DNA from: Methyloprofundus sedimenti
GTDB taxonomy: Bacteria > Pseudomonadota > Gammaproteobacteria > Methylococcales > Methylomonadaceae
Reading direction: 5' to 3'
Assembly (NCBI RefSeq): GCF_002072955.1
Contig: NZ_LPUF01000002.1
Location: 310,001-374,000 of the forward strand
DNA: 64,000 bases
This document shows positions 1 to 52,985 of the stretch, piece by piece. Made by a program: the position numbers and the translations under genes. Numbering within the stretch: position 1 is the stretch's first letter; every line of letters starts with the position of its first letter. A model generated the notes under the pieces. That model was not told where the DNA came from and made no database searches. It was given only the letters and a program-made list of their open reading frames with translations.

Positions 1-788
1 TATCGCCTAGTCGTTTAACAGCCTGGCTAGCTGAAAAGCAGATTACCAGCTGGTACACCGTACCTTCTTTATTAAGCTTTATGGCTCTTAAAGGTGCTTT
101 AGATACCACGCCAGTACCTAGTCTGAAACGCATTCTGTTTGCCGGTGAAGTTTTCCCCACGCAACACTTAATCAAACTGGCAAACTTACTTCCAGAAACC
201 GAACTGTATAATTTGTACGGTCCAACGGAAACTAATGTGTGTTGCTATTGGCAGGTGGATCGACAGCGTTTAAATATCGAACATACTATTCCTATTGGAC
301 TAGCTGCCTGCAATGCAAAGCTGATGATAGATGCTAACACCGGCGAATTGCAGGTCAACAGTCTGAATAATTTTTCAGGCTACTGGCAACATGGCAATCT
401 CCAGGTGCTCAGCCCTTCGACTTATGCAACTGGCGATAAAGTTTCACTCAATCAGTATGGTGAATACGACTATCACGGGCGACTGGACTGCATGTTAAAA
501 TGCTCTGGTTATCGCGTTGAACCGGCTGAAATTGAACAGTGCATTAATCAACTAGAGCTTATTGAAAGCTGCGCGGTGATTGGCATTAAAGACTCAGCCA
601 GCGGACAACGCCCTGCAGCAGTTGTGGTCTTAATAGCAGGCGCCTCTCTGGCAGAAGCAATAAAACCTTTACGCCAGTTGCTCGCACCTTATATGCAACC
701 GTGTAAATTTATAGTGGTGGATAGTTTACCCGTACTATCTAATGGCAAAACAGATTATCAGGCGATACAAGACTTATTTGATCAATAG
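1..788 (+). CDS. Amino-acid adenylation protein, 5'-truncated (prolyl-carrier-protein ligase-like)
   Basis: The reading frame is open from base 3, so the start lies outside the window; about 262 C-terminal residues are visible. Clear adenylation-domain core motifs are present: a WYTVPSLL segment, the A5 motif LYGPTE, the A7 motif ATGD, the A8 motif GRLDCMLKCSGYRVEPAEIE and the A10 lysine motif NGKTD at the end. These belong to enzymes that activate an amino acid as its AMP ester and load it onto a carrier protein. The style and the following dehydrogenase resemble the PltF/PigI/Bmp4 prolyl-carrier-protein ligases, but the specificity pocket is mostly outside the window, so proline as substrate is inferred from context. 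No carrier protein is visible next to it. It could equally activate another amino acid. Confidence 0.8.
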   Translation, partial: SPSRLTAWLAEKQITSWYTVPSLLSFMALKGALDTTPVPSLKRILFAGEVFPTQHLIKLANLLPETELYNLYGPTETNVCCYWQVDRQRLNIEHTIPIGLAACNAKLMIDANTGELQVNSLNNFSGYWQHGNLQVLSPSTYATGDKVSLNQYGEYDYHGRLDCMLKCSGYRVEPAEIEQCINQLELIESCAVIGIKDSASGQRPAAVVVLIAGASLAEAIKPLRQLLAPYMQPCKFIVVDSLPVLSNGKTDYQAIQDLFDQ

Positions 789-822
789 CTGATCTAACCG
801 CTCTACCTGGAAAATAAACCTT

Positions 823-1917
823 ATGATTGAATATCAGCAACTTCCCCCTGGTGGCGACCTTAACGCCTCCAGACTTCGCCTGCGATATTGTGCTCAGCAA
901 GGGCTATTCAGACATGCTGTTGCCACCGAATTCAATGGATACGGCGATGGTTTTCAAGAGCTGGTTAAAACACATTTAAGCCTGGGCAGGTACTGCCAGG
1001 ATACAGGTTTAATTTTATCCCTAAATGCGCATATTTGGGGCTTAATCTTCCCGTTAATACTTTATGGTAGCGAAACACAAAAACAATTGTGGCTGCCCGC
1101 CTTATTATCGGGAGATATGATTGCTGGCCATGCAATTACCGAACCTCAAGCCGGCTCTGATGTTAATGCGCTTACAACATCAGCAGTCACAACAGAATCC
1201 GGTTTCATTTTAAACGGTCATAAACGTTTCATCACCAATACACCGATTGCTGATGCATTGCTGATTTACGCTAAACTAGAAGGCAAGCTCTCTGCATTTT
1301 TAGTTAGAAAAACGGACATCGGCGCTGATTTCAGCGATCAACCTAGCGTAACTGGCTGTGCCAGCGCCACGATGGGCGATATTATCCTGCAAAACTGTTT
1401 TATATCCTTAGACCGCCATTTAGGAAAAACAGGCGCTGGCGGCATGATGATACAAAACGCTCTGGAATTGGAAAGAGCGTTCATTTTTGCCGGGATTATC
1501 GGCATCATGCAATGGCAGTTAGCACAAGTTGTACAATTCAGCCGCAAGCGACAAAGCAATGGCGTACATTTAGGCGCGAATCAAGCGATCAGCCATAAAA
1601 TTGCAGATATGCAATGCCGCCTGGATTCCTGCTTATTATGGGTGAATGAGTGTGCACGCTTAAAAGATACGGGTAAACGTATCAGCCTGGCCAGTGCGCA
1701 AACTAAATTAATCGCCAGTGAAGCTTTTTTACAATCAAGCCTGGATGCCGTGCAAATATTAGGGGCGACCGGTTTACTCAAAGAAAGTAAAATGACAGGC
1801 TTGGTTCAGGATGCCATGGCTAGTCGTTTATTTTCCGGTTCTTCGGAAATACAGAAGAATATCATTGCGGCATTAATTGGCACTGGAACGGGATTTAAGA
1901 ATCAAGTACGAAAATAA
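823..1917 (+). CDS. Acyl-CoA dehydrogenase family flavoenzyme (prolyl-PCP dehydrogenase-like)
   Basis: A 364-residue acyl-CoA dehydrogenase fold protein. Visible signatures are AITEPQAGSDV (flavin-contacting, about residues 104-114), the FILNGHKRFITN strand, and a C-terminal FSGSSEIQKNIIA motif. Family members are FAD enzymes oxidising acyl-CoA or carrier-bound acyl groups in the cytoplasm. It follows the adenylation gene by 34 bases on the same strand, the arrangement of the PltF-PltE, PigI-PigA and Bmp4-Bmp3 pairs, in which the second enzyme converts prolyl-S-carrier to pyrrolyl-2-carboxyl-S-carrier. That specific role is inferred from the pairing and from halogenase genes downstream. An ordinary acyl-CoA or acyl-ACP dehydrogenase in polyene synthesis is the alternative. 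The N-terminus is slightly short compared with the family, with ATG at 823. Confidence 0.75.
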   Translation: MIEYQQLPPGGDLNASRLRLRYCAQQGLFRHAVATEFNGYGDGFQELVKTHLSLGRYCQDTGLILSLNAHIWGLIFPLILYGSETQKQLWLPALLSGDMIAGHAITEPQAGSDVNALTTSAVTTESGFILNGHKRFITNTPIADALLIYAKLEGKLSAFLVRKTDIGADFSDQPSVTGCASATMGDIILQNCFISLDRHLGKTGAGGMMIQNALELERAFIFAGIIGIMQWQLAQVVQFSRKRQSNGVHLGANQAISHKIADMQCRLDSCLLWVNECARLKDTGKRISLASAQTKLIASEAFLQSSLDAVQILGATGLLKESKMTGLVQDAMASRLFSGSSEIQKNIIAALIGTGTGFKNQVRK

Positions 1918-1942
1918 ACTATGCTATTGCTTAGTCAAAGCT

Positions 1943-1967: not shown

Positions 1968-1982
1968 CAAAGGACTTCCGTT

Positions 1983-2648: not shown

Positions 2649-2686
2649 TGTAGCCCTGTATGGAGCTTGCGGAATACAGGGCTACA
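2649..2686. repeat. REP-type palindrome (TGTAGCCCTG class)
   Basis: An imperfect inverted repeat whose arms read TGTAGCCCTGTAT and ATACAGGGCTACA, separated by a short loop with a GGAGCTTGCGG core. This is the form of repetitive extragenic palindromes widespread in Gammaproteobacteria. It lies between the toxin gene and the downstream methyltransferase gene. Its sequence differs from the repeats at 33.8, 47.6 and 49.6 kb, so it represents another REP class. Confidence 0.6.
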
Positions 2687-2716
2687 ACTCCTATACAACA
2701 CACTCAAGGAAAAATA

Positions 2717-3193
2717 ATGTTTCTACGCGCTCTTTTAGCTTTTTTAATGGTTCCAGTTGTTGTTGCTGGATTTGTTCCTTTTATGCTCGCCGCCTATGAC
2801 CCGTACAAAGCGAATGGAAACTATGCCGGCTTGCTGCTTCTAGGCATTGGCCTGTTCATTCTTGTGTGGTGTGTACGCGATTTTTATGTCTCTGGAAAAG
2901 GCACCCTGGCACCCTGGGATCCCCCTAAGAATCTTGTTACAACTGGATTATATCGACATGTAAGAAACCCCATGTATGTCGGCGTTTTATTGATTCTTTC
3001 CGGTTGGGCGATTATCACAGCATCACCCATTGTTTCAGGGTTTTCGCTGTTTATGTTTACAGCCTTTTACGTCAGAGTGAGACTTCATGAAGAACCCTGG
3101 GCGGAGAGAACTTTTGCTGACCAATGGCTGGATTATAAAAATAATGTACCTCGATGGATACCACAACTTAAAGGCTATTACCCTGACAAGTAA
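2717..3193 (+). CDS. Isoprenylcysteine carboxyl methyltransferase / phospholipid methyltransferase family protein
   Basis: An integral membrane protein of about 158 residues with four or five hydrophobic segments. It carries the family signature NLVTTGLYRHVRNPMYVGVLL (the RHPMY-like SAM-binding motif) and a C-terminal HEEPWAERTFADQWLDYKNNVPRWIP stretch typical of bacterial ICMT/PEMT-like methyltransferases. The start is taken at ATG 2717 because AAGGA precedes it; a longer frame from 2660 would begin inside the REP palindrome. The bacterial substrate is usually unknown, with small lipids or hydrophobic thiols or acids as possibilities. Its place beside the halogenase block makes methylation of a pathway intermediate conceivable, but nothing in the sequence proves this. 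Confidence 0.75.
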   Translation: MFLRALLAFLMVPVVVAGFVPFMLAAYDPYKANGNYAGLLLLGIGLFILVWCVRDFYVSGKGTLAPWDPPKNLVTTGLYRHVRNPMYVGVLLILSGWAIITASPIVSGFSLFMFTAFYVRVRLHEEPWAERTFADQWLDYKNNVPRWIPQLKGYYPDK

Positions 3194-3194: not shown

Positions 3195-4517
3195 TTAAAA
3201 ATGTAGCTCTTCTATAACGCCACGCTTTTGCTGTTCAAACTGCTCCGAAAATTGTTCCCAGACACCTGCTTCTCGCGCGAGTTGTTTAAAATTTTCCGAG
3301 CGGTTAGTCATTTCAGAGGCTACCAGCATTAATTCTAATTCCAGCGTAGGCATTGACTTCATTAACGATTTAACCAAATCACGGTGCACACCATTACAAC
3401 CAAAATCACCTAATGACAATGCCCTGGAAAAGCTATAAAACTGCTGCATACGGTTTTCACATAAAGCGGCAAAACGCACTCTTTTTTTAGTATTTTTTAA
3501 TCCTTCCATAATAGCTAAAGTGGCAACCGCTGCATTATAAAAAGCATTCTGTACGCCATGCGAAAAAATGGGGTCCACAAACCCTGCGGCATCACCGATG
3601 CAATAATAGTTCTCACGGCAGGTCTGACTTGCATAATAGGAATAATCAGGACGGTACTGTAAAGAATTTTCAATAAACCCGGCATCGCTTAATAAATCTT
3701 TTAAATAAGGTATCCGGGCGCAACTCTGTTTAAAATACGCTTCGCGCTGGACCTTATTCATACCCGCTAATTTATCAGTATGCACAATCAAACCGACACT
3801 GGTTTTCTCCCGTAAAATAATATGCCACAGCCAGCCATCATCATGAGACATCACAAAAGTCACAGGCGCCACCGTCTTTAATTCTGCATTAGAATGACTT
3901 TGACGATCCACGCCTACGTAACGTGAATTTTTGAAATAACCCCATAGCGACAAGAAATTCATTGCCGAACTAATTGTTTGCCGTGTTTCTAACTGGTGTG
4001 CCAATAAGGAACTATGTCCACTGGCATCAACAACATACTGACACTGTATGCTTCCTTCCAGATTAGGGGTTCCGCGCGTATCAGTATATGCAACAACAGG
4101 TTCAGGACCCGATAAATCAACTTTTTTGACCACGACCTGATTAAAAACCTGTGCCCCCTGCTCCTCAGAATACGCCAGTAAGAGTTGATCAAAAATATCG
4201 CGTTCTATATGTAAACCCGGACGTTTGTAACCGTAGTCGGAAAACAAAATCTGATGAATCTTGTCATTCCAGACGGTAATACCGCCGGCTTTACTGATGA
4301 AACCTTGCTGCTGAATTTTTTCTGAAACACCAAGTTGATCAGTAAATTTCCAGAAATGAGGAATTAAACTTTCTCCTACCTGATTGCGCGGAAATTCTGC
4401 ACGTTCAAGTAATACTACATCCACGCCTTTTTTTGCCAGATGTGTTGCTGCACTACTCCCTGCAGGGCCGCCGCCGATAATGAGTACGGTGCATTTTGGG
4501 GGGATTGTTTGTTGCAT
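3195..4517 (-). CDS. Flavin-dependent halogenase-like oxidoreductase (FDH1)
   Basis: A 440-residue protein. It has the GGGPAGS dinucleotide fold near residue 15, the ER end of the second strand, GESLIP at about 49-54, and a lysine (K76) in FISKAGG aligned with the catalytic lysine that carries the halenium in flavin-dependent halogenases. The halogenase motif WxWxIP appears degenerated as WLWHII. A GDAAGFVDPIFSHGV flavin motif follows. Established members use FADH2, O2 and halide to chlorinate or brominate carrier-bound or free aromatics. The missing proline leaves activity uncertain, and an oxidoreductase of the geranylgeranyl-reductase-like group is the alternative. It is the last gene of the minus-strand block running from the ketosynthase. 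Confidence 0.75.
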   Translation of the reverse strand: MQQTIPPKCTVLIIGGGPAGSSAATHLAKKGVDVVLLERAEFPRNQVGESLIPHFWKFTDQLGVSEKIQQQGFISKAGGITVWNDKIHQILFSDYGYKRPGLHIERDIFDQLLLAYSEEQGAQVFNQVVVKKVDLSGPEPVVAYTDTRGTPNLEGSIQCQYVVDASGHSSLLAHQLETRQTISSAMNFLSLWGYFKNSRYVGVDRQSHSNAELKTVAPVTFVMSHDDGWLWHIILREKTSVGLIVHTDKLAGMNKVQREAYFKQSCARIPYLKDLLSDAGFIENSLQYRPDYSYYASQTCRENYYCIGDAAGFVDPIFSHGVQNAFYNAAVATLAIMEGLKNTKKRVRFAALCENRMQQFYSFSRALSLGDFGCNGVHRDLVKSLMKSMPTLELELMLVASEMTNRSENFKQLAREAGVWEQFSEQFEQQKRGVIEELHF

Positions 4518-4544: not shown

Positions 4545-5099
4545 TTACATATCACCTAAAGTGGCACCGTCTACAGGATTCTTTAGCCACTCAGCAATAT
4601 CGCTACCTAAAGCTTTGGTACAACGCCCCAATAATGCACAAGTGCCTTTGTAGGCTCCCATAAAACCACCCATAGAACCACGATTCGCAGTAAATGAAAG
4701 CGTTTCCTTCCCTTTTCTTAGTAAAGTACCTTTGACTGTAACCCACTGGCCACCACGACCAGCCCAGACATTCTTGTTATATTTTGGCAGATCAACAATT
4801 TCGATTTCCAGAAAATCAGCTGAGTTAGATCTTTGCGCATCCAGATCTATTCCAGCATATTGATCTTGGGCATAACTTTGTATAAAACCAGGCAGCTTGG
4901 TTAATAATTGGCATTCATTACGTACCGCCTCCCTGACCTCCAGGTCTTTTGCAAATACCACTGGGGCGATTTTTAAAACCCCCGTCCCCGAATAACTTAC
5001 AGTATCTTTGCCGATACTCGGGCTATCGTTTGACTTGTTACTTGCACATGCAACAAGGAATAAAATTAACAACATAGGCAATAGTTTAAAAAATTTCAT
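4545..5099 (-). CDS. DUF3313-like lipoprotein
   Basis: A 184-residue protein with a lipoprotein signal peptide ending in the lipobox LVAC (Cys about residue 18), so it is likely anchored in the outer membrane facing the periplasm. The remainder resembles the DUF3313 family: a mixed alpha/beta protein with KIAPVVFAKDLEVREAV near the start and a glycine-rich SMGGFMGAYKG segment near the end. No enzymatic motif is seen. It lies between two halogenase-like genes with the same orientation, 27 bases upstream of FDH1, suggesting a role in trafficking or anchoring of the pathway product. That role is inference from position only. Confidence 0.7.
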   Translation of the reverse strand: MKFFKLLPMLLILFLVACASNKSNDSPSIGKDTVSYSGTGVLKIAPVVFAKDLEVREAVRNECQLLTKLPGFIQSYAQDQYAGIDLDAQRSNSADFLEIEIVDLPKYNKNVWAGRGGQWVTVKGTLLRKGKETLSFTANRGSMGGFMGAYKGTCALLGRCTKALGSDIAEWLKNPVDGATLGDM

Positions 5100-5195: not shown

Positions 5196-5759
5196 TTATT
5201 TCTGAATACCTGTCACTTTATCGTGCTCAAAAACCACAATAAAGGTTTGAAAACGATTGCTCCAGTATGTCCAGGAATCCGACTCCAGCGAAGGTGTTCT
5301 GATAGCAGGCGGGTAACCGATAGCGACCTGGACAGCCAGTTTACTCATTCCTACGTTAACAGTTCCCTGCTGGATATTTTTCTGTTCCAGTGCGCTAAAC
5401 TGAGATAAATTTACTTTTGTTTTAGCGAATAATTTGGCAAAAGCCTGATCAACATTCTCACTGGTATGTCTGGAAACATTTTCTATTAATAAATCTTGAT
5501 TGGCGGCAATGAGCTTAACCTTAATTGACTTTGGCGTTACGTCCAGTAACTCTACTTCTGTATTAACAGCTAATAAAGTACCACGCCGATAATTGGTAGT
5601 ACGGTATTTGCCTTTTTCATATTGCATCGTCACCTGAGTGTAAAATTTATCTCCTAACTGCGCACCCTCTGGTAGTTGCACTGGCTCTGGAGACATAAGC
5701 TGACAAGCTGTTAAACTAAAAAGTAGACACAGCATCATTACTTGTATTAAGCGTTGCAT
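5196..5759 (-). CDS. Lipoprotein of unknown function, BamE/SmpA-like C-terminus
   Basis: A 187-residue protein with signal peptide and lipobox LTAC (Cys about residue 19). The C-terminal half carries GTVNVGMSKLAVQVAIGYPP followed by a tyrosine/tryptophan-rich strand (WTYWSNRFQTFIVVFEHDKV). This resembles the small BamE/OmlA fold, in which a conserved 'v..GMs..qV....G.P' turn precedes beta strands. The N-terminal half is not recognised. As an outer-membrane-facing lipoprotein placed between FDH2 and the DUF3313 gene, it may assist envelope delivery of the product. The similarity is by eye and the function is unproven. Confidence 0.65.
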   Translation of the reverse strand: MQRLIQVMMLCLLFSLTACQLMSPEPVQLPEGAQLGDKFYTQVTMQYEKGKYRTTNYRRGTLLAVNTEVELLDVTPKSIKVKLIAANQDLLIENVSRHTSENVDQAFAKLFAKTKVNLSQFSALEQKNIQQGTVNVGMSKLAVQVAIGYPPAIRTPSLESDSWTYWSNRFQTFIVVFEHDKVTGIQK

Positions 5760-5866: not shown

Positions 5867-7066
5867 TTACGAAGCTATAATCTTGCTCCTGCCACGTAGT
5901 AATCCTTGCTGAAATACATTATCCTCGCGCCATAAATCACCTGCCAGAATCGCGGCAATGTCTTTTCTTATACGCACATGCCGATCCTGTTCAAAAAACA
6001 AATTTTGCATGATACCAGAACAATAAAATCGCTCTATCATTAAATACATGGTTTTGAACCCAACCTGATAAGACTCATCTCCACTGATCTGTATTTCTGG
6101 ATCGGCCTCATTACTTGCCAGCAAAGCTTCATGCAATTGATCTGCGACCAACTCAGCGGTTTTCACCGCGAATAAAAATCCTGAGGAAAACACAGGATCA
6201 AGAAAACCTGCAGCATCACCGCAACAAGCAAAGCGCTGTCCAAAACGCTGCTTATTCAGATAACTAAAGTCCGCCTCCATACGCAGCTCAGATAGTACTT
6301 CTGCCCCCGCCAATAGGCTATTCATGCGCGGCGAAGCATTAATATAATGTTCAAATAATGCCTCCTGCTTTAAGCCGACAGGCGCTGTTTTTTGCACCAC
6401 CAACCCGACACTCAAACGACCATCCATTAAAGGTATGCCCCATATCCAGCCTATTTCAGAAAGAAATATTTGTACATTACCCTGTGCAAAGAGCTTTTCA
6501 GCGTCAGGAGAGCTTGCCAGCTTATAGTGCTTATACAAGGCAAATTTACCCAAATGATTTATTTTATTGATACTACTTAATTTTTTACCCATTAAGGCAT
6601 TACGACCAGTAGCATCAATAAAATAGCGTCCCCGATACTGCGCTTTATCAGTACCAACCTGCACTTCAAGCGCCATACATTGCACGCTAATGACTTGTTC
6701 TTGCTGATGTGCCACAACGCCATGCTTAATAGCATTATCCAACAACTTTTTATCAAATACCGAACGCTCTATTTGAAACGTACGATAAATGCCTTCAAAA
6801 GAAAAAAAAGTACTGCGCCCAGTCGCTTCATCAATAAATTCTGCACCGCCTTTTCTTAAATTGCCCTGGCTCCAGTCTATTCCTAACCTGTTCATAACCG
6901 GTTCAATCATTGGCAGCATAGACTCACCAATATGAAAACGCGGGAGCAGATCGCGTTCAAGCAGTAAAACACTATGCCCATATTGTGCTAGTAATGTAGC
7001 TGCCGTTGTACCCGCAGGACCTGCTCCGGCAATAATGACATCATAATTCTTTACGTCCAATTTCAA
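5867..7066 (-). CDS. Flavin-dependent halogenase-like oxidoreductase (FDH2)
   Basis: A 399-residue flavoprotein with all landmarks of the PltA/Bmp2-like halogenases. These are GAGPAGT (residues 14-20), FHIGESMLP (about 45-52), a lysine at residue 72 in RKGGAEF, the intact halogenase motif WIWGIP, and GDAAGFLDPVFSSG. The KGGAEF context matches the lysine position used by pyrrole and phenol halogenases acting on carrier-bound substrates. It lies downstream of the ketosynthase and chain length factor genes on the same strand, after a gap of 150 bases. Expected role: cytoplasmic halogenation of the aromatic starter or growing polyene, needing a separate flavin reductase, none of which is visible here. 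Confidence 0.82.
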   Translation of the reverse strand: MKLDVKNYDVIIAGAGPAGTTAATLLAQYGHSVLLLERDLLPRFHIGESMLPMIEPVMNRLGIDWSQGNLRKGGAEFIDEATGRSTFFSFEGIYRTFQIERSVFDKKLLDNAIKHGVVAHQQEQVISVQCMALEVQVGTDKAQYRGRYFIDATGRNALMGKKLSSINKINHLGKFALYKHYKLASSPDAEKLFAQGNVQIFLSEIGWIWGIPLMDGRLSVGLVVQKTAPVGLKQEALFEHYINASPRMNSLLAGAEVLSELRMEADFSYLNKQRFGQRFACCGDAAGFLDPVFSSGFLFAVKTAELVADQLHEALLASNEADPEIQISGDESYQVGFKTMYLMIERFYCSGIMQNLFFEQDRHVRIRKDIAAILAGDLWREDNVFQQGLLRGRSKIIAS

Positions 7067-7216: not shown

Positions 7217-7966
7217 TCAGCTTTTAAACTGGCACGCCCAGACAGGTGCTTTAATATTTAACGGCACTAAACCCACCTGCTTGTGCTGCACTGCCAGCAA
7301 CAAAGGAATGACTGCCGCGGCTGGTGCAGTCTCTGCCAGCTTAAGCCATTCCGCCTGCATATCTTGCTTATACTGTTGCGCAACCTGGGGCATAGTAATC
7401 GCACCTATTGCTTGCTCAGCCTCTGAACTCAAGACAAAAGCACAGGCAAACGCCGTTTGCCCGATAGGGGGTGCCAGATATTGTGGCCATAGTTCATCAT
7501 AACAGACCAACAATCGCTCACCTTTCCCTTGTTGCAATTGCGCCCATACCTCGATCAAGCCCATTGCAAAAGTATCATCAGCTGCAGCAATCGCTGTAGT
7601 AGGTGCCTGGCATTTATTTAAAATCCCCCAATAACCGGCCGTAGTATTATGTACGGAATTATGAAACTGAGTTGGAGAAAGTAGCTCGTTATCATCGGGC
7701 AGTAAACGACAAAGTGCATCAGTTACCTGTATTTCGCCCCCTAATGAGGCAAAAACCGACGCAAGGTTTTGTGGATCAGTATTCGCCTGCAAACACGCTA
7801 ATTTTGCTGCAGTAATAGCCATCCGCGTGGTCATGCTTGTGCGTCTGCGTATTCCGGCCGGAATAAAGCTATTATCTATATCGCTACCAGGCAAATTGAA
7901 ATGGCTGAGTAGTTCTCTATCCGGGCAACACACAACTGCAGATTTAATAAATAACTGTTTCATCAT
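7217..7966 (-). CDS. Beta-ketoacyl synthase-like chain length factor (ApeC-like)
   Basis: A 249-residue ketosynthase-like protein, much shorter than a full ketosynthase and without the active-site cysteine. The segment LSPTQFHNSVHNTTAGYWGI is characteristic of the short chain-length-factor partners in aryl polyene clusters (ApeC type). It starts four bases inside the end of the ketosynthase gene, showing translational coupling. In characterised aryl polyene systems this subunit forms a heterodimer with the ketosynthase ApeO and helps set the number of elongation cycles. The frame and length look intact. Confidence 0.85.
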   Translation of the reverse strand: MMKQLFIKSAVVCCPDRELLSHFNLPGSDIDNSFIPAGIRRRTSMTTRMAITAAKLACLQANTDPQNLASVFASLGGEIQVTDALCRLLPDDNELLSPTQFHNSVHNTTAGYWGILNKCQAPTTAIAAADDTFAMGLIEVWAQLQQGKGERLLVCYDELWPQYLAPPIGQTAFACAFVLSSEAEQAIGAITMPQVAQQYKQDMQAEWLKLAETAPAAAVIPLLLAVQHKQVGLVPLNIKAPVWACQFKS

Positions 7967-9171
7967 AGCGATACAACTACACTGGCATTATTGCCGCCAA
8001 AACCAAAAGAATTACTCATCGCAATTTGCAATGTCTGCGCATGTAATGGCGCCTGGATGACCTGACACTGGCAGTCATCATCAAGTTCCCGTAAACCCTG
8101 AGTACCGGGAATAAACTGTTGCTGTAATGCTATTAAAGCAATTATTGTTTCTAAGGCACCCGCTGCACCCAACGTATGCCCGGTAAGACCTTTGGTTCCG
8201 CTACATGCCAGCCTGTCTGCAAAAACACTGAACACCGCACGGCTTTCCACGCTGTCATTTATTTTTGTTCCTGTAGCGTGTAAATTCAAATAATCAATGT
8301 TGTCAGCTGTTAAACCTGCCAGCTGTAAGGCATTATTCATTGCCAGGGCAGCGCCCTTTCCTTCCGGATGCGGGGTACTCATATGATGGGCATCCGAAGA
8401 CTCACCCACAGACAGTACTTTCATCGCATCGCGATTATCAGCATGCACTGTTTCTAGCACTAACAGGCCAGCGGCTTCACCAATACTGATCCCTTTCCGG
8501 TCTCTATCCATAGGGGTACAGGGCTGGTTTGAAACTAATTCCAGACTGCGGAAACCACGCAAAGTTAAGCGACATAAGGTATCAACACCGCCGACTATGA
8601 CCGCGTCACAAAGCCCGCCATTAATTAAACGCTGTCCAGCAGCAATCGCTTTAGCACCTGATGAGCAGGCGGTGGAAATAGCATAACAAATACCCGTTAA
8701 GCCTAATTCCAGTTGTACAAATCGTGCCGTTGCCTGGTAAGCATGTTCAGTTACAAAATGAAAATCATCCGGCATTTTACCCGTGTCCAACAAAATTCCA
8801 TAAGCCGCTTCTGTTTCATAAAGCCCCGAGGTGCTGGTGCCAATAATAACTCCGATTCGATGCGCGCCATATTTTTCTTTCGCCACTTCGACAGCATCAC
8901 GACCCCCCCCTTGTTTGTCATTTAAAGCGGTTAAAGCAACTCGTGCATTGCGGCAATTATATTCTGCTAATTGATCACGAATGTCCAATAATGGCTGTTT
9001 GATTTCTCCTACATAAGCAGGAAACGGGATATTAAATAAAGATAATGGCTCCAGTCTGGACTGATTCTCTGCCAGGCATTGGTATAAAGCTTTATTGCCC
9101 ATACCACAGGCACTTAAAGCCGAATAGGCTGTTATTGCCACGGGGGCGATATAAGCGTGATTATTGTCCAT
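7963..9171 (-). CDS. Beta-ketoacyl-ACP synthase (FabF/ApeO-like)
   Basis: A 402-residue condensing enzyme with the complete catalytic triad: Cys in AISTACSSGAKA, His in NLHATGTKINDS and His in GLTGHTLGAAGALE. C-terminal SNSFGFGGNNASVV is the usual glycine-rich end. Such enzymes extend carrier-bound acyl chains with malonyl units in the cytoplasm. Overlap with the chain length factor gene and its similarity to aryl-polyene ketosynthases indicate the elongating enzyme of the polyene pathway whose other steps are encoded at 29.8-47.6 kb. It is the first gene of the minus-strand block; its promoter should lie in 9172-9333. Confidence 0.9.
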   Translation of the reverse strand: MDNNHAYIAPVAITAYSALSACGMGNKALYQCLAENQSRLEPLSLFNIPFPAYVGEIKQPLLDIRDQLAEYNCRNARVALTALNDKQGGGRDAVEVAKEKYGAHRIGVIIGTSTSGLYETEAAYGILLDTGKMPDDFHFVTEHAYQATARFVQLELGLTGICYAISTACSSGAKAIAAGQRLINGGLCDAVIVGGVDTLCRLTLRGFRSLELVSNQPCTPMDRDRKGISIGEAAGLLVLETVHADNRDAMKVLSVGESSDAHHMSTPHPEGKGAALAMNNALQLAGLTADNIDYLNLHATGTKINDSVESRAVFSVFADRLACSGTKGLTGHTLGAAGALETIIALIALQQQFIPGTQGLRELDDDCQCQVIQAPLHAQTLQIAMSNSFGFGGNNASVVVSL

Positions 9172-33435: not shown

Positions 33436-33442
33436 GGAAAAA

Positions 33443-33806: not shown

Positions 33807-33875
33807 GTAGGGCGGACTTTAGTCCGCTGATGTAAACAAGCACCAAACAAGCGGACTAAAGTCTGCCCTGGCTAC
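33807..33875. repeat. REP pair (BIME-like), GTAGGGCGGACTTTAGTCCGC class
   Basis: Two palindromic units face each other. The left arm reads GTAGGGCGGACTTTAGTCCG, followed about 24 bases later by GCGGACTAAAGTCTGCCCTGGCTAC. Each unit folds into its own hairpin and the two can pair with each other. The right end overlaps the TAG stop codon of the glycosyltransferase gene. It separates the ACP-to-exporter part of the operon from the upstream biosynthetic genes. Related in design to the BIMEs at 47.6 and 49.6 kb but different in sequence. Confidence 0.7.
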
Positions 33876-39120: not shown

Positions 39121-39124
39121 AAAA

Positions 39125-40432: not shown

Positions 40433-40701
40433 ATGGCAATGCTATTTAAACGCGCGACACAATAAGAACTTAAGGTACCAACACTGGTTATATTTTCAGG
40501 CGTTAGCGCTTCGGCTGGTAACTCCAGGCCAAACTGCCGTTCAATAAACAACACTAATTCCATTAAAGAAAAGGAGTCCACACCGATCTCTGATAACGCA
40601 GTATCAGAAGTCACTTCTATCTGTGGTGCTAATATATTATCGCGCAAAAAAACACATAACTGACTCGCAATCTCTTCAGCGCTAAACTTCACTACAATCA
40701 T
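40429..40701 (-). CDS. Acyl/peptidyl carrier protein (second copy)
   Basis: A 90-residue carrier protein with the phosphopantetheine serine in IGVDSFSLMELVLFIERQFG (DSF instead of DSL), followed by LPAEALTPENITSVGTLSSYC. The DSFS pattern resembles stand-alone carrier proteins of starter-loading modules. It overlaps the condensation-like gene by four bases and lies 35 bases after FDH3, suggesting that halogenase, carrier and acyltransferase act on one tethered intermediate. Confidence 0.9.
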   Translation of the reverse strand: MIVVKFSAEEIASQLCVFLRDNILAPQIEVTSDTALSEIGVDSFSLMELVLFIERQFGLELPAEALTPENITSVGTLSSYCVARLNSIAI

Positions 40702-41993: not shown

Positions 41994-42281
41994 AACTTTT
42001 TTAAATTCTAAGATTCTATTTATTTTTTTTAAGTACACTCAATTCTCGGAATGTAGAGCAATGAAAAAAGATTTTGTGTATATAATCCAGCTATAAGATA
42101 TAGCTAAAAAGAGTGTATATTCGCATGAAATCAACATTGGCGAGGATGTTGCTATCAATAAGCAACGCCGAATTATAGACTGCCTCCCGATAAAAAAGAA
42201 GTTACGTTACTTGAATAAGAGCGCAACGAGCGGCTAAAATGGCCGTTATTCATCTACTTACTGATACGCCTCAGCATAACT

Positions 42282-44811: not shown

Positions 44812-45037
44812 CTTTTTAGAGATATGAGACACTAAAAGTGAAGTTGTGTGACACTTTGTAAAATGTTTGATAAAAAATATCCTATATGCGCATATATTGT
44901 TGAAACAGGACATTCCATGCTTTTGGGTAAACCAATAGAAGGAGACGCATTATTCGCGATCGATGCGCTTCATATTTTACCTTTATGAACGAAAAACGCC
45001 TTATAACGAGTTTAATTTATATTATTATTGCACAACA

Positions 45038-45472
45038 ATGAACGATAAAGTTTTAAACCAAACACAGTTCGCACACCTGATTCCTCATGCAGGTTCAATG
45101 ATGTTAATTGATCAAGTGGATTCATGGAGTGATAAACAAATTAATTGTTCAACTCAATCACATTTAGCGAGTGATAACCCGTTACGCTTAAATAATAGCT
45201 TATCAGCAATGCATCTGATCGAATATGGTGCGCAGTCTATGGCAATACACGGAGGCCTGCTATCAGGTCAATCTTCACCCGGATTTTTGGCGGCTGTGCG
45301 GGGTGCGCATTTTCATATTGATAACCTGGATACCATTACCAGCTCACTGCATATAGAAGCCTGCGCAGAGCTAAAAATCGAAAACGGGGCCGTCTATGCG
45401 TTTCGCATTATCGATAGCCATAATGTGTTACTGCTTGATGCCCGAGCAACTGTTATTCATACCCAAGCATGA
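45038..45472 (+). CDS. 3-hydroxyacyl-ACP dehydratase-like hotdog protein (ApeP-like)
   Basis: A protein of about 144 residues starting at ATG 45038; a longer frame from 44963 adds an implausible leader. HLIPHAGSMMLIDQVDSW is the FabZ-like active-site helix region with the catalytic histidine, and NSLSAMHLIEYGAQSMAIHGG carries the acidic partner (glutamate in HLIEYGAQ). SPGFLAAVRGAHFHIDNL is a typical hotdog strand. This matches the ApeP-type dehydratase that forms the conjugated double bonds. It overlaps the reductase gene by four bases. Confidence 0.87.
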   Translation: MNDKVLNQTQFAHLIPHAGSMMLIDQVDSWSDKQINCSTQSHLASDNPLRLNNSLSAMHLIEYGAQSMAIHGGLLSGQSSPGFLAAVRGAHFHIDNLDTITSSLHIEACAELKIENGAVYAFRIIDSHNVLLLDARATVIHTQA

Positions 45473-46188
45473 AAAAAGCACTGATTACTGGCGGTAGTGG
45501 CGATATTGGTTCTGCTATTTGCACTCGCCTCGCACAAGATAATATCCATGTTATTGTGCATAGCAACCACAACTTCGACAAAGCACAACAGGTTGTCGAC
45601 AGCATCAAACGACAAGGCGGTTCAGCAGAAGCTGTCGCATTTGATGTGTGCGATGTACAAGCGTGCGAAGAGGCCGTTAAACAACTCTCTGCATCTGGCT
45701 TGATTCAAATCATTATCAATAATGCCGGCATACATCGTGATGCGCCTTTAGTGGGTATGAGCAGAAAAAACTGGAGTGATGTCATTGATGTCTCTTTGCA
45801 TGGTTTTTACAATGTCACTCAGCCTTTACTAATGCCGATGATCCAAAGCCGCTGGGGACGTATTATCAATATGTCATCGGTTGCTGGTGTGATGGGCAAT
45901 CGCGGACAATGCAATTATTCCGCAGCAAAAGCCGCCTTAAACGGCGCGACAAAATCACTCGCCCAGGAGCTCGCCTCGCGCAAAATCACTGTGAATGCCA
46001 TTGCCCCAGGGATTATTCAAGGCAGCATGACCGAAAACAGTTTTGATGCCCAGGCTATTAAAAATATCGTGCCTATGAAACGCGCAGGTAAACCCGAAGA
46101 AGTTGCCGCCCTCGCCGCCTTTCTATGTTCTGATGATGCCAGCTATATCTCCGGACAAATCATCAATATCAATGGTGCGATGGCGTAA
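45469..46188 (+). CDS. 3-oxoacyl-ACP reductase (FabG/ApeQ-like)
   Basis: A 239-residue classical short-chain dehydrogenase with ALITGGSGDIGSAIC (NADPH-binding glycines), NNAGIHRD, INMSSVAGVMG with the catalytic serine, and NYSAAKAALNG with the YxxxK pair. NAIAPGIIQGSM and the C-terminal YISGQIININGAMA are FabG-like. It reduces the 3-keto group between condensation and dehydration in polyene synthesis (ApeQ role). ATGA overlap with the dehydratase gene shows coupling. Confidence 0.92.
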   Translation: MKKALITGGSGDIGSAICTRLAQDNIHVIVHSNHNFDKAQQVVDSIKRQGGSAEAVAFDVCDVQACEEAVKQLSASGLIQIIINNAGIHRDAPLVGMSRKNWSDVIDVSLHGFYNVTQPLLMPMIQSRWGRIINMSSVAGVMGNRGQCNYSAAKAALNGATKSLAQELASRKITVNAIAPGIIQGSMTENSFDAQAIKNIVPMKRAGKPEEVAALAAFLCSDDASYISGQIININGAMA

Positions 46189-46282: not shown

Positions 46283-47614
46283 ATGGAAAGGAATAATAAT
46301 ACAATAATGAATAACACTCAACAAAACCACTACGAAGCATTAGTCATCGGCGGGGGACCTGCAGGAACAACCATTGCCAGCTTACTCGCTGACAAAGGGC
46401 ATGCGATATGTTTGCTGGAAAAGGCACATCACCCGCGTTTTCATATTGGCGAATCCTTATTGCCGATGAATTTGCCCATTTTAGAAAAACTTGGTGTGCT
46501 CGAACAAATCGACGCTATTGGTATGAAAAAATACGCAGCTGAATTCAACTCTCTCGAAACTTCTCTAGCCAGGGATACGTTCTATTTTGCTAAAGCGGCA
46601 AACAAAAACCACCCTTTTGCATATCAGGTCAGGCGTTCTGAGTTTGATGAGATCTTATTTAGAAATTGCCAAAAAAAAGGGGTCACCGCTCTCGAAGGAA
46701 TGACCGTAACAGACATAGATCTGGATAGTTCACTTAAAAAGATTAAAGCAACCGATGCTCAAGGCAAACTGCATGAATTTACAGCTGGTTATCTGATTGA
46801 CGCTTCAGGACGTGATACCGTTCTGGCGCAACAACTGAACAGCAAACAAAAAAATCCAAAACATAAAATGGCTGCTATTTATGGACATTTCCGTAATGTT
46901 GCACGCAGAACGGGTAAAGATGAAGGCAATATCAGTATTTACTGGTTTCAACATGGCTGGATATGGCTGATTCCGCTAAAAGATGGCCTGATGAGTATTG
47001 GTTGTGTTTGTTGGCCTGCGTATTTAAAAACTCGCCAAACATCCTTAGACCTTTTTTTACATCAAACCTTAGAGTGTGTACCTGAAATAAGATTGCGCAT
47101 GCAAGGTGCTCTACTTGATGGTGAAGCTCAGGCAACAGGCAATTATTCTTATCAATCCAGCATCATGTCAGGCAGTGGTTTTTTATTGATTGGCGATGCC
47201 TATGCTTTTGTAGACCCGGTTTTTTCCAGTGGCGTTTATTTAGCAATGCAAAGCGCCTCTAACGGAGCAGAGCTGGTGGATCAGCTGCTCAAAAAAAGCC
47301 CTCAAGGCAAACAACTAACAACCCGGTTTGAAGATTCTGTAGCAGAAGAAATCAATGCCTTTTGCTGGTTTATTTATCGTTTTAATAGCCCGGCTTTACA
47401 CAAGTTATTAATGTCATCTGATGAGGCCAGCCAGCACCCTGTTAAACAAAAGTTGAAATCAGCCGTTATCTCCGTTTTAGCTGGAGATGCTTATAATGCG
47501 CAGATTAAACTGCCCTTACTGGCGTTTAAATTGCTTTATTTCATTAATAAACTCAACCAATATAAACAAAATCGCGCATTTACTCTATTTAAAAAACAGC
47601 AAATGGGGGAGTAG
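46283..47614 (+). CDS. Flavin-dependent halogenase-like oxidoreductase (FDH4)
   Basis: A 443-residue flavoprotein with ALVIGGGPAGTTIASLLAD, FHIGESLLPMNLPILEKLGV, the twin lysines 82-83 in GMKKYAAEF at the catalytic position, the full halogenase motif WIWLIP in HGWIWLIPLKDG, and GDAYAFVDPVFSSGVYLA. This is the closest of the five to the well-known pyrrole/phenol carrier-dependent halogenases by these motifs. It is the last gene of the plus-strand operon after the ketoreductase. Its last codons GGG GAG TAG lie in the BIME beginning at 47606, so the gene end was shaped by the repeat. Confidence 0.85.
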   Translation: MERNNNTIMNNTQQNHYEALVIGGGPAGTTIASLLADKGHAICLLEKAHHPRFHIGESLLPMNLPILEKLGVLEQIDAIGMKKYAAEFNSLETSLARDTFYFAKAANKNHPFAYQVRRSEFDEILFRNCQKKGVTALEGMTVTDIDLDSSLKKIKATDAQGKLHEFTAGYLIDASGRDTVLAQQLNSKQKNPKHKMAAIYGHFRNVARRTGKDEGNISIYWFQHGWIWLIPLKDGLMSIGCVCWPAYLKTRQTSLDLFLHQTLECVPEIRLRMQGALLDGEAQATGNYSYQSSIMSGSGFLLIGDAYAFVDPVFSSGVYLAMQSASNGAELVDQLLKKSPQGKQLTTRFEDSVAEEINAFCWFIYRFNSPALHKLLMSSDEASQHPVKQKLKSAVISVLAGDAYNAQIKLPLLAFKLLYFINKLNQYKQNRAFTLFKKQQMGE

Positions 47615-49622: not shown

Positions 49623-49697
49623 GGGGAATAGCTTTAGCCTGCACGAGTCGTTATCTTTTTAAATGTGTCTATACGTTTAGGCTAAAGCCTACTCCCC
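49623..49697. repeat. BIME (paired REP), GGGGAGTAGGCT class, copy 2
   Basis: The second copy reads GGGGAATAGCTTTAGCCTGC at its left and TAGGCTAAAGCCTACTCCCC at its right, with the same central ACGAGTCGTTATCTTTTTAA as copy 1 and in the same orientation. Left-arm differences (GGAATAG) show some decay. The right end overlaps the end of FDH5, whose last codons GGG GAG TAG are the repeat itself. Confidence 0.85.
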
Positions 49698-51284
49698 GAA
49701 TGCAGCAAAAATATCCTGCAAATGCTTAGTGCTAACCTCCTGCATTTCAGGCGCATGCTTTTTTAATTCAGGAAATGACCGCGTTGCTTCAGTTGTAATT
49801 TCATTTGCCAGCTGCTTAATAAATGCCATGTTCTTATTCAGCTGTTGCTGCAATTCTGCATCACTCTGCTGCTTATGCAAATCCTTATTCAGTTGCTGTA
49901 TAAACTCGATCCGACTGTAATTCAAAAAAATGTCACTCATATCCTGTGTCGATAAATCTGTCTCGGCCCAGTGACGGAATAGACCTTGCATTTGGGAATT
50001 CAGCTGATATATCTGCTGCAGGGTGATTGATGCAGATTGCATAAACTCCAGGTCAGTTAATTTATTGCTGAAAAATAATAACGCGATCCCGCTCCAATAA
50101 AGAGTGAAGTCCCAGATAACTTTTATTGTCATCACCCTGGCATTCCCCATAATAGGATATTGATCTGCATAAACAGGACCGAATGCTATAAACATGATAC
50201 GAAATAGTTTCTCATACGTCTCTGTTGCTAAAGTAATGTCTTCTCCCGCATACTGTTTAACAATCAGTTCAGTAATAAAACTGTTATTCATGGCAATAAA
50301 ATCACTACCTGGCGAGTAAAATGGATCAAGAAAAACACCAGCATCACCCGTAATGGCCCAGCCATCCGCTGAAAACATTTTTTTGCAATTATATGAATAA
50401 TGTTTCAAGGTGAGAAAATCCTGCAACTGATCCAAATGCTGATCAATAATCGCGGCAAATTGAGGTTCATGTTTTTCCAGCCACACTATTGCTCGCTCAA
50501 AGGTATTGAATTCAGCATAAGGGTGAATATTAGGGTCTGCCACAATACCTATGCTGGTTGCACCTGATGAGAGAGGAATAATCCAGACCCAGTAGCCTTT
50601 GCCTAGTAAGTGATTGGTACTCAACCACCGGGGTTCTTTTACCCGATCTTGCCATTGTTGTTCGGACGTCCACTCATCCACCTTGATCACATGATTGATT
50701 CTAAACCAGGAGGCATTAACATCATGATATGCAGGTTTTGCAAGTTTCAATTTTCTCTTCAACACGCCCATGCGCCCGCTTGCATCGATCAACCATTTGC
50801 TGTGAACGGAGCTTTCCTGCCCATTCTGTAAAAGCGTAATTTGATGATTATATTTACCTACAGAAATATCTTTTATTTTACAGCTATCCTGAAAATCAAT
50901 ACCCAGAGAGAGACATCGCTTGATTAATGCATTCTCAAATCGTCCTCTATCTATTTGATAGCTTTTTGAGAATGGATAAATACTCGGCCCAAGCTCAATG
51001 CGCTTTGCAATATCCTGATTATCCCGATAGCTATAAAAAAATCGTAAGCCTAATTTAGGCAGTTCATTTTCCAGCTCAGCCTTCAATCTCAAAATTTCTT
51101 CAAAGTAATAACTGGCTATTTCTACCGAAGATTCACCTACTTTATGCGCTGCTTCGGGCATAGGGTAAGTTGCCTTTTCTACAACCAGGATGCTGATATT
51201 ATTGATTTTTCGCCTAAGCTGAATTGCCAATGTTAATCCAGACAATCCACCGCCCATAATAAGGACATCATACGCTTTAAGCAT
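49689..51284 (-). CDS. Flavin-dependent halogenase-like oxidoreductase, long form (FDH5)
   Basis: A 531-residue protein, longer than the other four. It has VLIMGGGLSGLTLAIQL, KVGESSVEIASYYFEEIL, lysine 77 in ELPKLGLRFF at the catalytic-lysine position, the motif WVWIIP in GYWVWIIPLSSG, and GDAGVFLDPFYSPGSDFIA, followed by a helical C-terminal extension of about 150 residues. The GESSVEI form belongs to a separate branch of the tryptophan-halogenase-like superfamily whose chemistry is largely unknown. It lies upstream of BIME copy 2 and downstream of the CrtI-like gene, same strand. Confidence 0.75.
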   Translation of the reverse strand: MLKAYDVLIMGGGLSGLTLAIQLRRKINNISILVVEKATYPMPEAAHKVGESSVEIASYYFEEILRLKAELENELPKLGLRFFYSYRDNQDIAKRIELGPSIYPFSKSYQIDRGRFENALIKRCLSLGIDFQDSCKIKDISVGKYNHQITLLQNGQESSVHSKWLIDASGRMGVLKRKLKLAKPAYHDVNASWFRINHVIKVDEWTSEQQWQDRVKEPRWLSTNHLLGKGYWVWIIPLSSGATSIGIVADPNIHPYAEFNTFERAIVWLEKHEPQFAAIIDQHLDQLQDFLTLKHYSYNCKKMFSADGWAITGDAGVFLDPFYSPGSDFIAMNNSFITELIVKQYAGEDITLATETYEKLFRIMFIAFGPVYADQYPIMGNARVMTIKVIWDFTLYWSGIALLFFSNKLTDLEFMQSASITLQQIYQLNSQMQGLFRHWAETDLSTQDMSDIFLNYSRIEFIQQLNKDLHKQQSDAELQQQLNKNMAFIKQLANEITTEATRSFPELKKHAPEMQEVSTKHLQDIFAAFGE

Positions 51285-51458
51285 TATTGTTCTCCGATAC
51301 GAAGGTATCTCTGATATACGTGATTGGGAAAGCGGGCCTTAGACTGACTTTATCGCTATTAAAAAATATCTAAGCTTAGTTTAGATCGTACTAAATACGT
51401 ATTAGTATAATCAGTTTGCTCAAAGTATTATATCAATCCAGCCTGATTTTATGCACTA

Positions 51459-52985
51459 CTAACAATAAGAAGTACACAAATCCCATAATTCATTTTGCTT
51501 ACTCAAACCTAAAACTTTCTGAGCAGTTTGGACACCCGAATAACTTACCCCATATACCCCACCACCCGGTGTCGTCCAATGCCCTACAAAGTATAGCCCG
51601 TCTACCGGCGCTTTATTCGCAATTTGATTTACGCCTACCTGCTTTGGCGTCGCAGCCCAACCATATGCAGCGCCTTTATGATTCAGGGTATAGCGTTGCA
51701 TGGTTGTTGGTGAGCCAGATTCCAGAAATAAAATATGTGTTTTTAAGCCGGGGATTTTTGACTCTGCAAAATCCAGCATTTTTTCCATATAGTCGGCTTT
51801 AGCTTGTTTCCAGTCCATAGTCTGGTCAAAATTGGCTAATGCAGTCAGCATCACCAGATGTTCTCCTGTCGGAGCAAGGCTATTATCAACCAGAGTAGGA
51901 ACAGTTATACTTAACCAGGAAATCTTACCCTGCAGAGTATTATCATAATTAACTGCATGGTTTACTTCATCGTAATAAAAGGCCTCATGATGCGCTCCTG
52001 CCTGAACAAGATCCAGGTCAGTGGCAATATAGACAACAAAAATTGAACAGGACACTTCCATGCGCTGTAACCGAGACAGGTAACGTTTGGGGAAATGCTC
52101 TTCACCTACCAGCTGATATACAGTTTGTAACATATCAGCATTAGCAATCACAGTCTCGGCATGAATGACTTCTCCCGAAACTAACAGTACGCCTTGAACC
52201 TTATTATCACAAATATGTATTTTCTTTACTTTATTCTTGAAGTAAATCTCCCCTCCGGCCTGTTTTAATCCAGTTACCAGACTATCAGCGAACCCCTGAA
52301 ACCCGCCTTTACAGTAGTAGGCGCCGTCTGAAACATAGCCCATCAGCATGCTTGCCCAATAAACAAACGATACTTTTTCAGGAGGTAAACCTAAATACGG
52401 CCACAGAGCCGCAAAAATACATTTTAGTTGAGGATCTTTGATGTAGTCTCCCCAGACATCGGCGAGAGTACAACGGCGATATTTAAATAATAAATCTAAT
52501 TCAGCATACAGGTTATTGATACTTTCCGATGCCATAACATCATCACATTTGGCAACTTGCTCAGCCAACTGCAAACATAAGGATAATAACTCCGTCAAAC
52601 CTTGCCGTTCATCAGGAAATAGGTCACCTAATTGTTGCGCAATGCCGGTAATAGACGAAGGCAGTTCAACTTCGATACCTGCTACCGAAACAAAAGCAAA
52701 GGGATTAACTGCAATAAACTCTAACTGCTCATACTGATCTATAGCCTGGAGTACTTTACGGATAATTTGCCCCCCGTCAAAGCCTTCCAGCCCACAACCA
52801 CTAGTCAGATGTACGCCAGCATCAAATGAATATTTTTTACGCTTAAAGCCATGTACATAACCTCCAGAACGATCATGCTGCTCTAACAACAGAACTTTTT
52901 GTCCTGATTTTGCTAACAAAGCCGCTGCTGTTAAGCCACCTATGCCACTACCAATAACAACAACATCAACTTTTTTTTGCTGCAT
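51459..52985 (-). CDS. CrtI/CRTISO-like FAD-dependent desaturase or isomerase
   Basis: A 508-residue flavoprotein with VDVVVIGSGIGGLTAAALLAK, LLEQHDRSGGYVHGFKRKKYSFDAGVHLTSG (the second flavin-binding strand) and the C-terminal VDGLYFVGHWTTPGGGVYGVSYSG. This matches phytoene desaturase, carotenoid isomerase and retinol saturase-like enzymes. No carotenoid synthase (CrtB/CrtE) is in the window. Given the position next to FDH5 and the polyene cluster, oxidation or isomerisation of the conjugated chain is plausible; a carotenoid role with genes elsewhere remains possible. Confidence 0.85.
   Translation of the reverse strand: MQQKKVDVVVIGSGIGGLTAAALLAKSGQKVLLLEQHDRSGGYVHGFKRKKYSFDAGVHLTSGCGLEGFDGGQIIRKVLQAIDQYEQLEFIAVNPFAFVSVAGIEVELPSSITGIAQQLGDLFPDERQGLTELLSLCLQLAEQVAKCDDVMASESINNLYAELDLLFKYRRCTLADVWGDYIKDPQLKCIFAALWPYLGLPPEKVSFVYWASMLMGYVSDGAYYCKGGFQGFADSLVTGLKQAGGEIYFKNKVKKIHICDNKVQGVLLVSGEVIHAETVIANADMLQTVYQLVGEEHFPKRYLSRLQRMEVSCSIFVVYIATDLDLVQAGAHHEAFYYDEVNHAVNYDNTLQGKISWLSITVPTLVDNSLAPTGEHLVMLTALANFDQTMDWKQAKADYMEKMLDFAESKIPGLKTHILFLESGSPTTMQRYTLNHKGAAYGWAATPKQVGVNQIANKAPVDGLYFVGHWTTPGGGVYGVSYSGVQTAQKVLGLSKQNELWDLCTSYC

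Follow-up and report, generated by a model that had tools for sequence, protein, structure and literature searches.

The 64,000-nucleotide stretch of the Methyloprofundus sedimenti genome analysed here (the window; positions 310001-374000 of contig NZ_LPUF01000002.1) carries an aryl-polyene (APE)/xanthomonadin-type type II polyketide cluster. Methyloprofundus is a marine genus; the genome measures 4.29 Mb, is assembled in 6 contigs, and is labelled G000 in the set of G-numbered genomes compared below. The cluster is best read as the aryl-polyene cluster of a Methyloprofundus-group methanotroph, probably fitted with two plug-in acyl cassettes, one of which would make a (halo)pyrrole. Gene content, motifs, linkage and co-distribution, all directly observed, point to a pigment bearing pyrrole rather than to a known pigment merely over-halogenated. 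The initial annotation had proposed a single poly-halogenated polyene. All the genes it named are present where it placed them, according to Pfam and NCBIfam matches, position and synteny. It overlooked starter-type genes located at and before the first base of the window, which make up the putative pyrrole cassette, and the presence of this cassette changes the predicted product.

The cassette includes four genes (Table 1). The stand-alone adenylation enzyme proA (479 residues) starts 652 bases before window base 1, the in-window frame at 81-788 being its 3' part. Its pocket, of the proline type, reads DLFYLALVCK in the window and in 9 of the 14 orthologues, DLFYIAFVCK or DLFYVAFVCK in the other 5; pocket positions were read from what we take to be the corresponding positions of the phenylalanine domain, and the reference code of the proline-activating RedM/PltF is presumably DLLYLALVCK. 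L-proline--carrier ligases are among the best profile matches of proA in the PDB, ranking below another peptide synthetase and a gramicidin synthase subunit that has two domains of this kind. The second enzyme, proDH, is putatively of the prolyl-carrier-protein dehydrogenase type, and has no close paralogue in its own genome (the next match shows 31% identity, 38 bits). The carrier ACP3, which adjoins the cassette in relatives, is a dedicated one. Clike0 is predicted to have the condensation-domain fold, and the HxxxDxxG pattern is found in the window protein and in 13 of 14 others, G012 being the exception.

Named relatives come out of a single search of genome contigs by an FDH2 profile (FDH2 is one of the halogenase-like flavoenzymes described below), of which the best 80 loci were used; more relatives exist. 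Among these loci are Methyloprofundus metagenome-assembled genomes (MAGs), the methanotrophic endosymbiont of Bathymodiolus puteoserpentis, Methylomonas (lenta, LW13, methanica, SURF-2), MAGs labelled Methylobacter, Mariprofundus/Mariprofundaceae, Thiohalobacter, Chromatiales and Methylothermaceae, and then more distant bacteria. In 23 loci read from relatives, carrier, Clike0, proA and proDH follow one another in this order within a few kb; in the genome of the window a gap of about 10 kb separates Clike0 from proA. In relatives the cassette often resides beside the polyene ketosynthase (KS) and half-size chain length factor (CLF). The cleanest joint cluster, in G121, packs the carrier, Clike0, proA, proDH, FDH1, FDH2, CLF, KS, MMPL, LolA, COG4648, ACP1 and LP2 into about 14 kb. 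Carrier, condensation-fold protein, proA, KS, CLF and FDH2 occur in one stretch in the cultured strains Methylomonas sp. LW13 and M. methanica NCIMB 11130, which makes the reading open to direct testing. The series proDH-proA-Clike0-carrier was also seen beside a ketoreductase (KR) and FDH2 in MAGs labelled Mariprofundaceae (L131, which has KS/CLF as well) and Mariprofundus (L126), which suggests, if the bins are clean, that pyrrole/polyene genes have been transferred between distant proteobacteria.

Presence profiles were drawn for 151 genomes, G000 included (proDH, E <= 1e-60; CLF, E <= 1e-40; AMPhot, the starter-type ligase, E <= 1e-60). Both proDH and CLF are present in 38 of them, on one contig within 25 kb in 19 and on different contigs in 19. 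In genomes of at most 10 contigs the two lie together in 7 of 8, G112 being the exception. This type of CLF is missing from 15 of the 53 proDH genomes. The surroundings of proDH were read in 10 of the 15 (all but G002, G003, G039, G081 and G099). The cassette is flanked by another aryl-polyene-type ketosynthase in G027, G053, G059 and G075, and is whole in G033 and G137, with no polyene synthase genes in the stretch examined; in G019 proA and proDH have only a KR-like match (26%) nearby.

Five proteins of the PF04820 family (FDH1 to FDH5), encoded between 3.2 and 51.3 kb, all score above the Pfam cut-off. Flavin-dependent halogenases have been picked by a lysine and the motifs WxWxIP and FxxPxxSxG, and WxWxIP is absent or varied in some true halogenases (PMC8407142). 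As the initial annotation had stated, the lysine at the CmlS/PltA column is kept in all five and WxWxIP in four; FxxPxxSxG is kept in all five, so that FDH2 to FDH5 feature the whole motif set. In an alignment of 85 rows (5 solved halogenase chains and 80 proteins of the FDH type, the window's own and those of relatives) the lysine is found in 84, FxxPxxSxG in 85 and WxWxIP in 75, the 10 misses being all FDH1 rows. The single row without the lysine is FDH3 of G109, badly aligned at a late-starting N terminus. All three motifs are absent from the control, 4 rows made by 3 different flavin adenine dinucleotide (FAD) oxidoreductases of the same genome, picked with a GG-reductase model, distant from the FDHs and loosely aligned. 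In FDH2, residues K72, W207, W209, I211 and P212 are invariant in 16 aligned sequences.

Pairwise identity among the five proteins is 16-29%, and local duplication as their origin was rejected on this ground. By sequence they are old, separate families or deep lineages, not one expansion. The tree, built from FDH rows and halogenases such as PltA and Mpy16 with no known reductase family among its rows, places the FDH1, FDH2, FDH3 and FDH5 rows in one clade each. FDH4-labelled rows are split: FDH4 of the window groups with homologues from xanthomonadin/aryl-polyene-type clusters, a 'WYWLIP' group from five genomes adjoins FDH3, and one row stands apart. Named halogenases are the top solved relatives of FDH1 to FDH4. 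FDH4-type genes (39-53% identity) lie beside KS, CLF, KR or further genes of the aryl-polyene type in Lysobacteraceae, Caballeronia, Acetobacteraceae and Thiobacillaceae, and FDH5-type genes (41-43% identity) in two Lysobacteraceae loci with xanthomonadin/aryl-polyene-type clusters. In G009 a spacing of 40 bases separates FDH4 from FDH5, and the pair lies about 370 kb away from the other cluster genes. In the window an ISL3-family element (47883-49284; transposase 47994-49244; 39-base inverted ends, 82%) lies between FDH4 and FDH5, and a 70-base repeat that contains a palindrome flanks the element in two copies (90%; 47615-47684 and 49631-49700).

Single FDHs follow single modules, which gives FDH1 and FDH2 testable partners. 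Co-occurrence was assessed by Fisher tests on genome sets, phylogeny being handled only by collapse to genera. CLF is found in 38/38 genomes with FDH2, and 3 CLF genomes lack FDH2. Likewise, 43 of the 45 FDH1 genomes have proDH; FDH1 occurs without proDH in G085 (77% complete). Collapsed to genera, the figures are 15/16 for FDH1-proDH and 14/14 for FDH2-CLF. In the 110 genomes without this CLF, proDH accompanies FDH1 in 10/11, and is found in 5/99 of those devoid of FDH1 (Fisher 6.7e-10). In closed CLF-less genomes the FDH1-proDH distance is about 837 kb (G027), 106 kb (G059) and 203 kb (G137). MMPL, LolA, COG4648 and TauE genes lie beside FDH1 in G027 and G019, and thus FDH1 still accompanies polyene export genes there. 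The lipoprotein-like LP1 lies beside FDH1 in 5 of the 7 unlinked FDH1 loci read. FDH3, FDH4 and FDH5 have weaker links with proDH and CLF (Fisher 1e-2 to 5e-6), and all five FDHs coexist with proDH and CLF in only 3 of the 151 genomes (G000, G009, G013).

FDH3 belongs to a second cassette parallel to the pyrrole one, made by AMPlig, FADox, Clike, ACP2 and FDH3, and complete in 9 relatives; FDH3 itself is found in 14 of the 151 genomes, its own included, at an identity of at least 59%. Clike is homologous to Clike0 over 400 columns (hhalign 99.9%), and features HxxxDxxG in the window and in 11/11 others. Compared by sequence with solved structures, FADox gave N-terminal Rossmann matches alone, and no informative relative.

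The polyene module includes KS paired with a half-size CLF (PRK09185, PF13723) and an APE-type carrier, starter ligase, KR, dehydratase and exporter set, in keeping with the cluster type given in the initial annotation. There is a 4-base overlap between the frames of KS and CLF. The dehydratase, COG4648 and LolA assignments rest on position, since the first two have no Pfam match and the third a match under cut-off. The cluster had been described as split. In the relative G009, and in others, KS directly follows MMPL; the 20.7 kb between KS and MMPL in the window are therefore not a shared feature, and the idea of a cluster split by nature was rejected.

Table 1. Genes of the polyene module, the two acyl cassettes and their neighbours. 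Positions are those of the window, except where numbered in locus L011; strand is + or -.
Feature	Position	Strand	Assignment
ACP3, carrier of 83 residues	L011:5882-6133 (about 12 kb upstream)		PF00550 43.7 bits; LDSMG
Clike0, 443 residues	L011:6130-7461 (about 12 kb upstream)		no Pfam match
proA, stand-alone adenylation enzyme, predicted L-proline:carrier ligase	-651..788 (L011:17349-18788, whole gene)	+	PF00501/PF13193
proDH, prolyl-carrier-protein dehydrogenase type	823..1917	+	acyl-CoA-dehydrogenase-type; NCBIfam PigA/RedW best two models
PEMT/ICMT-type membrane methyltransferase	2660..3193	+	PF04191 57.3 bits; orthologues in 8 relatives' loci, often near the pyrrole cassette
FDH1, halogenase-like	3195..4517	-	PF04820 114.4 bits
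LP1, lipoprotein-like	4545..5099	-	no Pfam match; frequent FDH1 neighbour (synteny)
LP2, lipoprotein-like	5196..5759	-	no Pfam match; orthologues in loci of 11 relatives
FDH2, halogenase-like	5867..7066	-	PF04820 83.6 bits
CLF, ApeC-like, half-size	7217..7966	-	PF13723 118.6 bits
KS, ApeO-like	7963..9171	-	NCBIfam PRK09185 469 bits (cut-off 407)
MMPL/RND-type exporter, ApeM-like	29861..32155	-	PF03176 44.5 bits
LolA-like chaperone, ApeL-like	32158..32790	-	PF03548 16.6 bits, under cut-off; synteny
COG4648-like membrane protein, ApeG-like	32791..33468	-	no Pfam match; position and synteny
ACP1, polyene carrier protein	33443..33706	-	PRK09184 106 bits (cut-off 70)
GT2 glycosyltransferase	33872..34633	-	PF00535
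PlsC-type acyltransferase	34623..35402	-	PF01553
TauE/SafE-type permease	35415..36434	-	PF01925; recurs near FDH1/polyene genes (synteny)
AMPlig, adenylating ligase	36431..37876	-	PF00501 206 bits
FADox, flavoprotein	37876..39195	-	PF12831 236 bits
Clike, condensation-superfamily protein	39125..40432	-	HHALMDAHG; PF00668 26.4 bits, under cut-off (30.6)
ACP2, carrier	40429..40701	-	PF00550
FDH3, halogenase-like	40737..42038	-	PF04820 95.8 bits
AMPhot, starter-type ligase and hotdog fusion, ApeH/ApeI-like	42282..43913	+	PF00501 over cut-off; hotdog part FabA-like 19.8 bits, under cut-off (23)
LpxL-type acyltransferase	43882..44811	+	PF03279
Hotdog-type dehydratase, ApeP-like	44963..45472	+	no Pfam match; position adjoining KR in relatives
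KR, ApeQ-like	45469..46188	+	PF00106/PF13561; YSAAK
FDH4, halogenase-like, xanthomonadin-cluster type	46283..47614	+	PF04820 102.8 bits
FDH5, halogenase-like	49689..51284	-	PF04820 53 bits
CrtI/carotenoid-isomerase-like flavoprotein	51459..52985	-	PF01593; TIGR02730 197 bits, under cut-off; synteny

A scheme for the product can be drawn, in which proline specificity, pyrrole formation, halogenation and the product itself are predicted from what is known of the protein families. AMPhot would load an aryl acid onto ACP1; KS/CLF, KR and the dehydratases would build the polyene, and the acyltransferases, GT2, LolA-like and MMPL proteins would attach and export it. In the pyrrole cassette proA would adenylate L-proline and load ACP3, proDH would oxidise prolyl-ACP3 to pyrrole-2-carboxyl-ACP3, FDH1 would halogenate the pyrrole-2-carboxyl unit, and Clike0 would pass it to the polyene product, either as an ester or amide cap or in the role of an alternative starter. 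The second cassette may process some acid in like manner by means of AMPlig, ACP2, FADox, Clike and FDH3. FDH2 would act with the polyene synthase, and FDH4 and FDH5 are candidates for ring halogenation of the xanthomonadin type. Halogen is likely to be part of the product.

Simple replacement of the aryl starter by pyrrole was considered and dropped, as AMPhot is present in 36 of the 38 genomes having both proDH and CLF. AMPhot is missing from G061 (75% complete) and from G121; in the latter the contig stops within the CrtI gene, which AMPhot neighbours in related genomes. This count speaks for pyrrole as a cap or as a second starter, though not decisively. Our guess, at about even chances against an alternative starter, leans to pyrrole as a cap or a second acyl group, given the dedicated starter ligase AMPhot and the condensation-fold protein that each cassette owns. 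Proteins of this fold usually make esters or amides, and other chemistry is possible.

The polyene module shares with the APE clusters of E. coli, Acinetobacter and Xenorhabdus KS and a half-size CLF, a feature of APE clusters (PMC8358021), carriers, starter ligase, KR and dehydratases, as well as acyltransferases, glycosyltransferase, COG4648, LolA-like and RND/MMPL proteins. The E. coli gene table (apeA-apeR; PMC8253772) lists APE cluster parts with no proline cassette, condensation-fold protein or halogenase; the window has two extra acyl cassettes and five FDHs. KS/half-CLF, ligase, KR and dehydratase are also shared with the xanthomonadin (Xanthomonas, Lysobacter) and arcuflavin (Azoarcus) clusters, and FDH4-type, sometimes FDH5-type, flavoenzymes with the xanthomonadin-type loci of Lysobacteraceae. 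In xanthomonadin clusters the KS/half-CLF pair has an essential partner, ORF16 (PMC3691225). The starter in these clusters is 3-hydroxybenzoic acid, made by XanB2. One halogenase gene is named per xanthomonadin or arcuflavin cluster in the sources as available, whereas a further three FDH families are present in the window, with a predicted pyrrole route. Conversion of proline to pyrrole on a carrier, followed by halogenation of the carrier-bound pyrrole, is an established route (PMC8407142). The stand-alone prolyl A domain, acyl-CoA-dehydrogenase-type oxidase, carrier and FAD halogenase of the pyoluteorin, prodigiosin, tetrabromopyrrole and marinopyrrole pathways have predicted counterparts in the window. 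In contrast to these pathways, the downstream partner in the window is an aryl-polyene type II polyketide synthase, and the cassette includes a condensation-fold protein. Pyrrole is joined to polyene in the keronopsins of ciliates. The same junction, proposed here, is found in the fungal polyenylpyrroles (auxarconjugatin), which come from other producers and are set beside the window by product only.

The initial annotation took the count of five halogenases as a sign of one poly-halogenated, xanthomonadin-like lipid, with all five acting jointly on one aryl polyene and no pyrrole. The motifs kept by the five proteins agree with this, as do the bromine carried by xanthomonadins and the halogenase present in Xanthomonas clusters (PMC3691225). 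Yet the five proteins belong to distinct lineages that go with distinct modules, and the full set seldom co-occurs with proDH and CLF. Homologues of FDH4 and FDH5 occur in other clusters of this type, both genes stand far away from the rest in G009, and a putative proline-to-pyrrole cassette resides at the window edge. We hold this explanation to be very unlikely. Nor is a five-halogenase cluster unique, one of the pyrrolomycin type having been reported (PMC12670696). It is unlikely, too, that the cassette makes a separate small molecule and is merely a neighbour of polyene genes. The proDH genomes lacking the CLF type studied, and the whole cassettes of G033 and G137, would fit such an arrangement; against it stand the compact joint blocks such as that of G121, the cassettes located beside another aryl-polyene-type ketosynthase, and the position of FDH1, profile partner of the cassette, beside export genes in G027 and G019.

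The link between pyrrole and polyene may be right and most FDHs nonetheless be flavin oxidoreductases or monooxygenases, so that the product has little or no halogen; we regard this as somewhat unlikely. All FDHs score far under the CmlS halogenase equivalog cut-off (900 bits), and arcuflavin is C41H52O4 though its cluster lists an 'arcA halogenase' (PMC3949708); a predicted halogenase in such a cluster is therefore no guarantee of a halogenated product. The constancy of the lysine and of FxxPxxSxG, absent from the three FAD oxidoreductases of the same genome, and the named halogenases among the top solved relatives of FDH1 to FDH4 speak against it.

Several findings weigh against a halogenated pyrrole-polyene, some of them in favour of non-halogenating FDHs as well. 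FDH1 reads WLWHII in place of WxWxIP, the proline being lost in 10 of the 14 FDH1 rows and kept in 4. PltA and Mpy16 form a separate clade with which no FDH, FDH1 included, specifically groups, and some joins in the tree are flagged as long-branch. The solved 'flavoprotein/dehydrogenase' 3nix is a close relative of the FDHs too, and the best NCBIfam match of FDH3 is the monooxygenase QhpG. In the cassette, proDH scores 281.6 bits with PigA (cut-off 500) and 268 with RedW (cut-off 650), and the fold nearest to that of Clike0, AzeD, bears the annotation of a dehydratase rather than that of an acyltransferase. In G025, G042 and G073 proDH has no proA orthologue nearby. Ten proDH genomes lack FDH1, including G054, G076, G111 and G126, which have proA. 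G018 has KS, CLF, FDH1 and FDH2, with no proDH in the genome and no proA in the 60 kb examined; FDH1 is hence not strictly tied to pyrrole.

Between KS and MMPL lies an island (9334-29769) which, by its gene content, is of the light/photo-oxidative stress type. It includes photolyase (11419), SOUL, DUF1731 epimerase, chalcone-isomerase-like, fatty acid desaturase, amine oxidase, DUF1365, CMAS (19721; a second at 22331 by reading), DUF1295, histidine kinase and BLUF-PsiE (24831) genes, a PAS gene (28364) whose product has the LOV-like motif NCRFLQ, and a gene at 25837 whose product we take to be YbgA-like. The island presumably resembles the ChrR singlet-oxygen regulon. Weak kinase matches aside, the search of other polyene loci did not show it; in G109, homologues of the amine oxidase, BLUF, LOV and 25837 genes lie about 6-17 kb from the FDH3 cassette. 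The TauE/SafE-type permease is found beside FDH1 or polyene genes also in G027, G019, G137, G094 and G100, and a role in anion handling near halogenases is possible. CrtI-like genes adjoin such clusters in several families, and the flavoprotein may isomerise or desaturate the polyene. CrtI is adjoined by a pair of small exported proteins (53125-54030) that resemble each other and are assigned to no family, and homologues of the one at 53125 lie near FDH5/CrtI in G009 and G013.

Aryl polyene clusters are reportedly dominant in Methylococcaceae, and have been read as encoding photoprotective pigments (PMC11964084). That survey and another (PMC12810054) report aryl polyene clusters in methanotrophs; a word search of their main texts returned neither pyrrole nor halogen. 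A bacterial aryl polyene with a proline-derived pyrrole was not found among the best-ranked papers of the literature searches, mostly without subscription papers. Should many methanotroph aryl polyene clusters specify a proline-derived pyrrole unit, the chemistry so far assigned to them would be wrong. It is conceivable, though we put it forward only tentatively, that methanotrophs, symbionts of deep-sea Bathymodiolus mussels included, make halogenated, pyrrole-bearing aryl polyene lipids by a modular system. In it, interchangeable cassettes of the type 'activate, oxidise, halogenate, transfer', which do not share carriers or condensation-fold proteins, would decorate a single polyene line. 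If so, such cassettes would serve as parts in the attachment of aromatic acyl units to polyenes.

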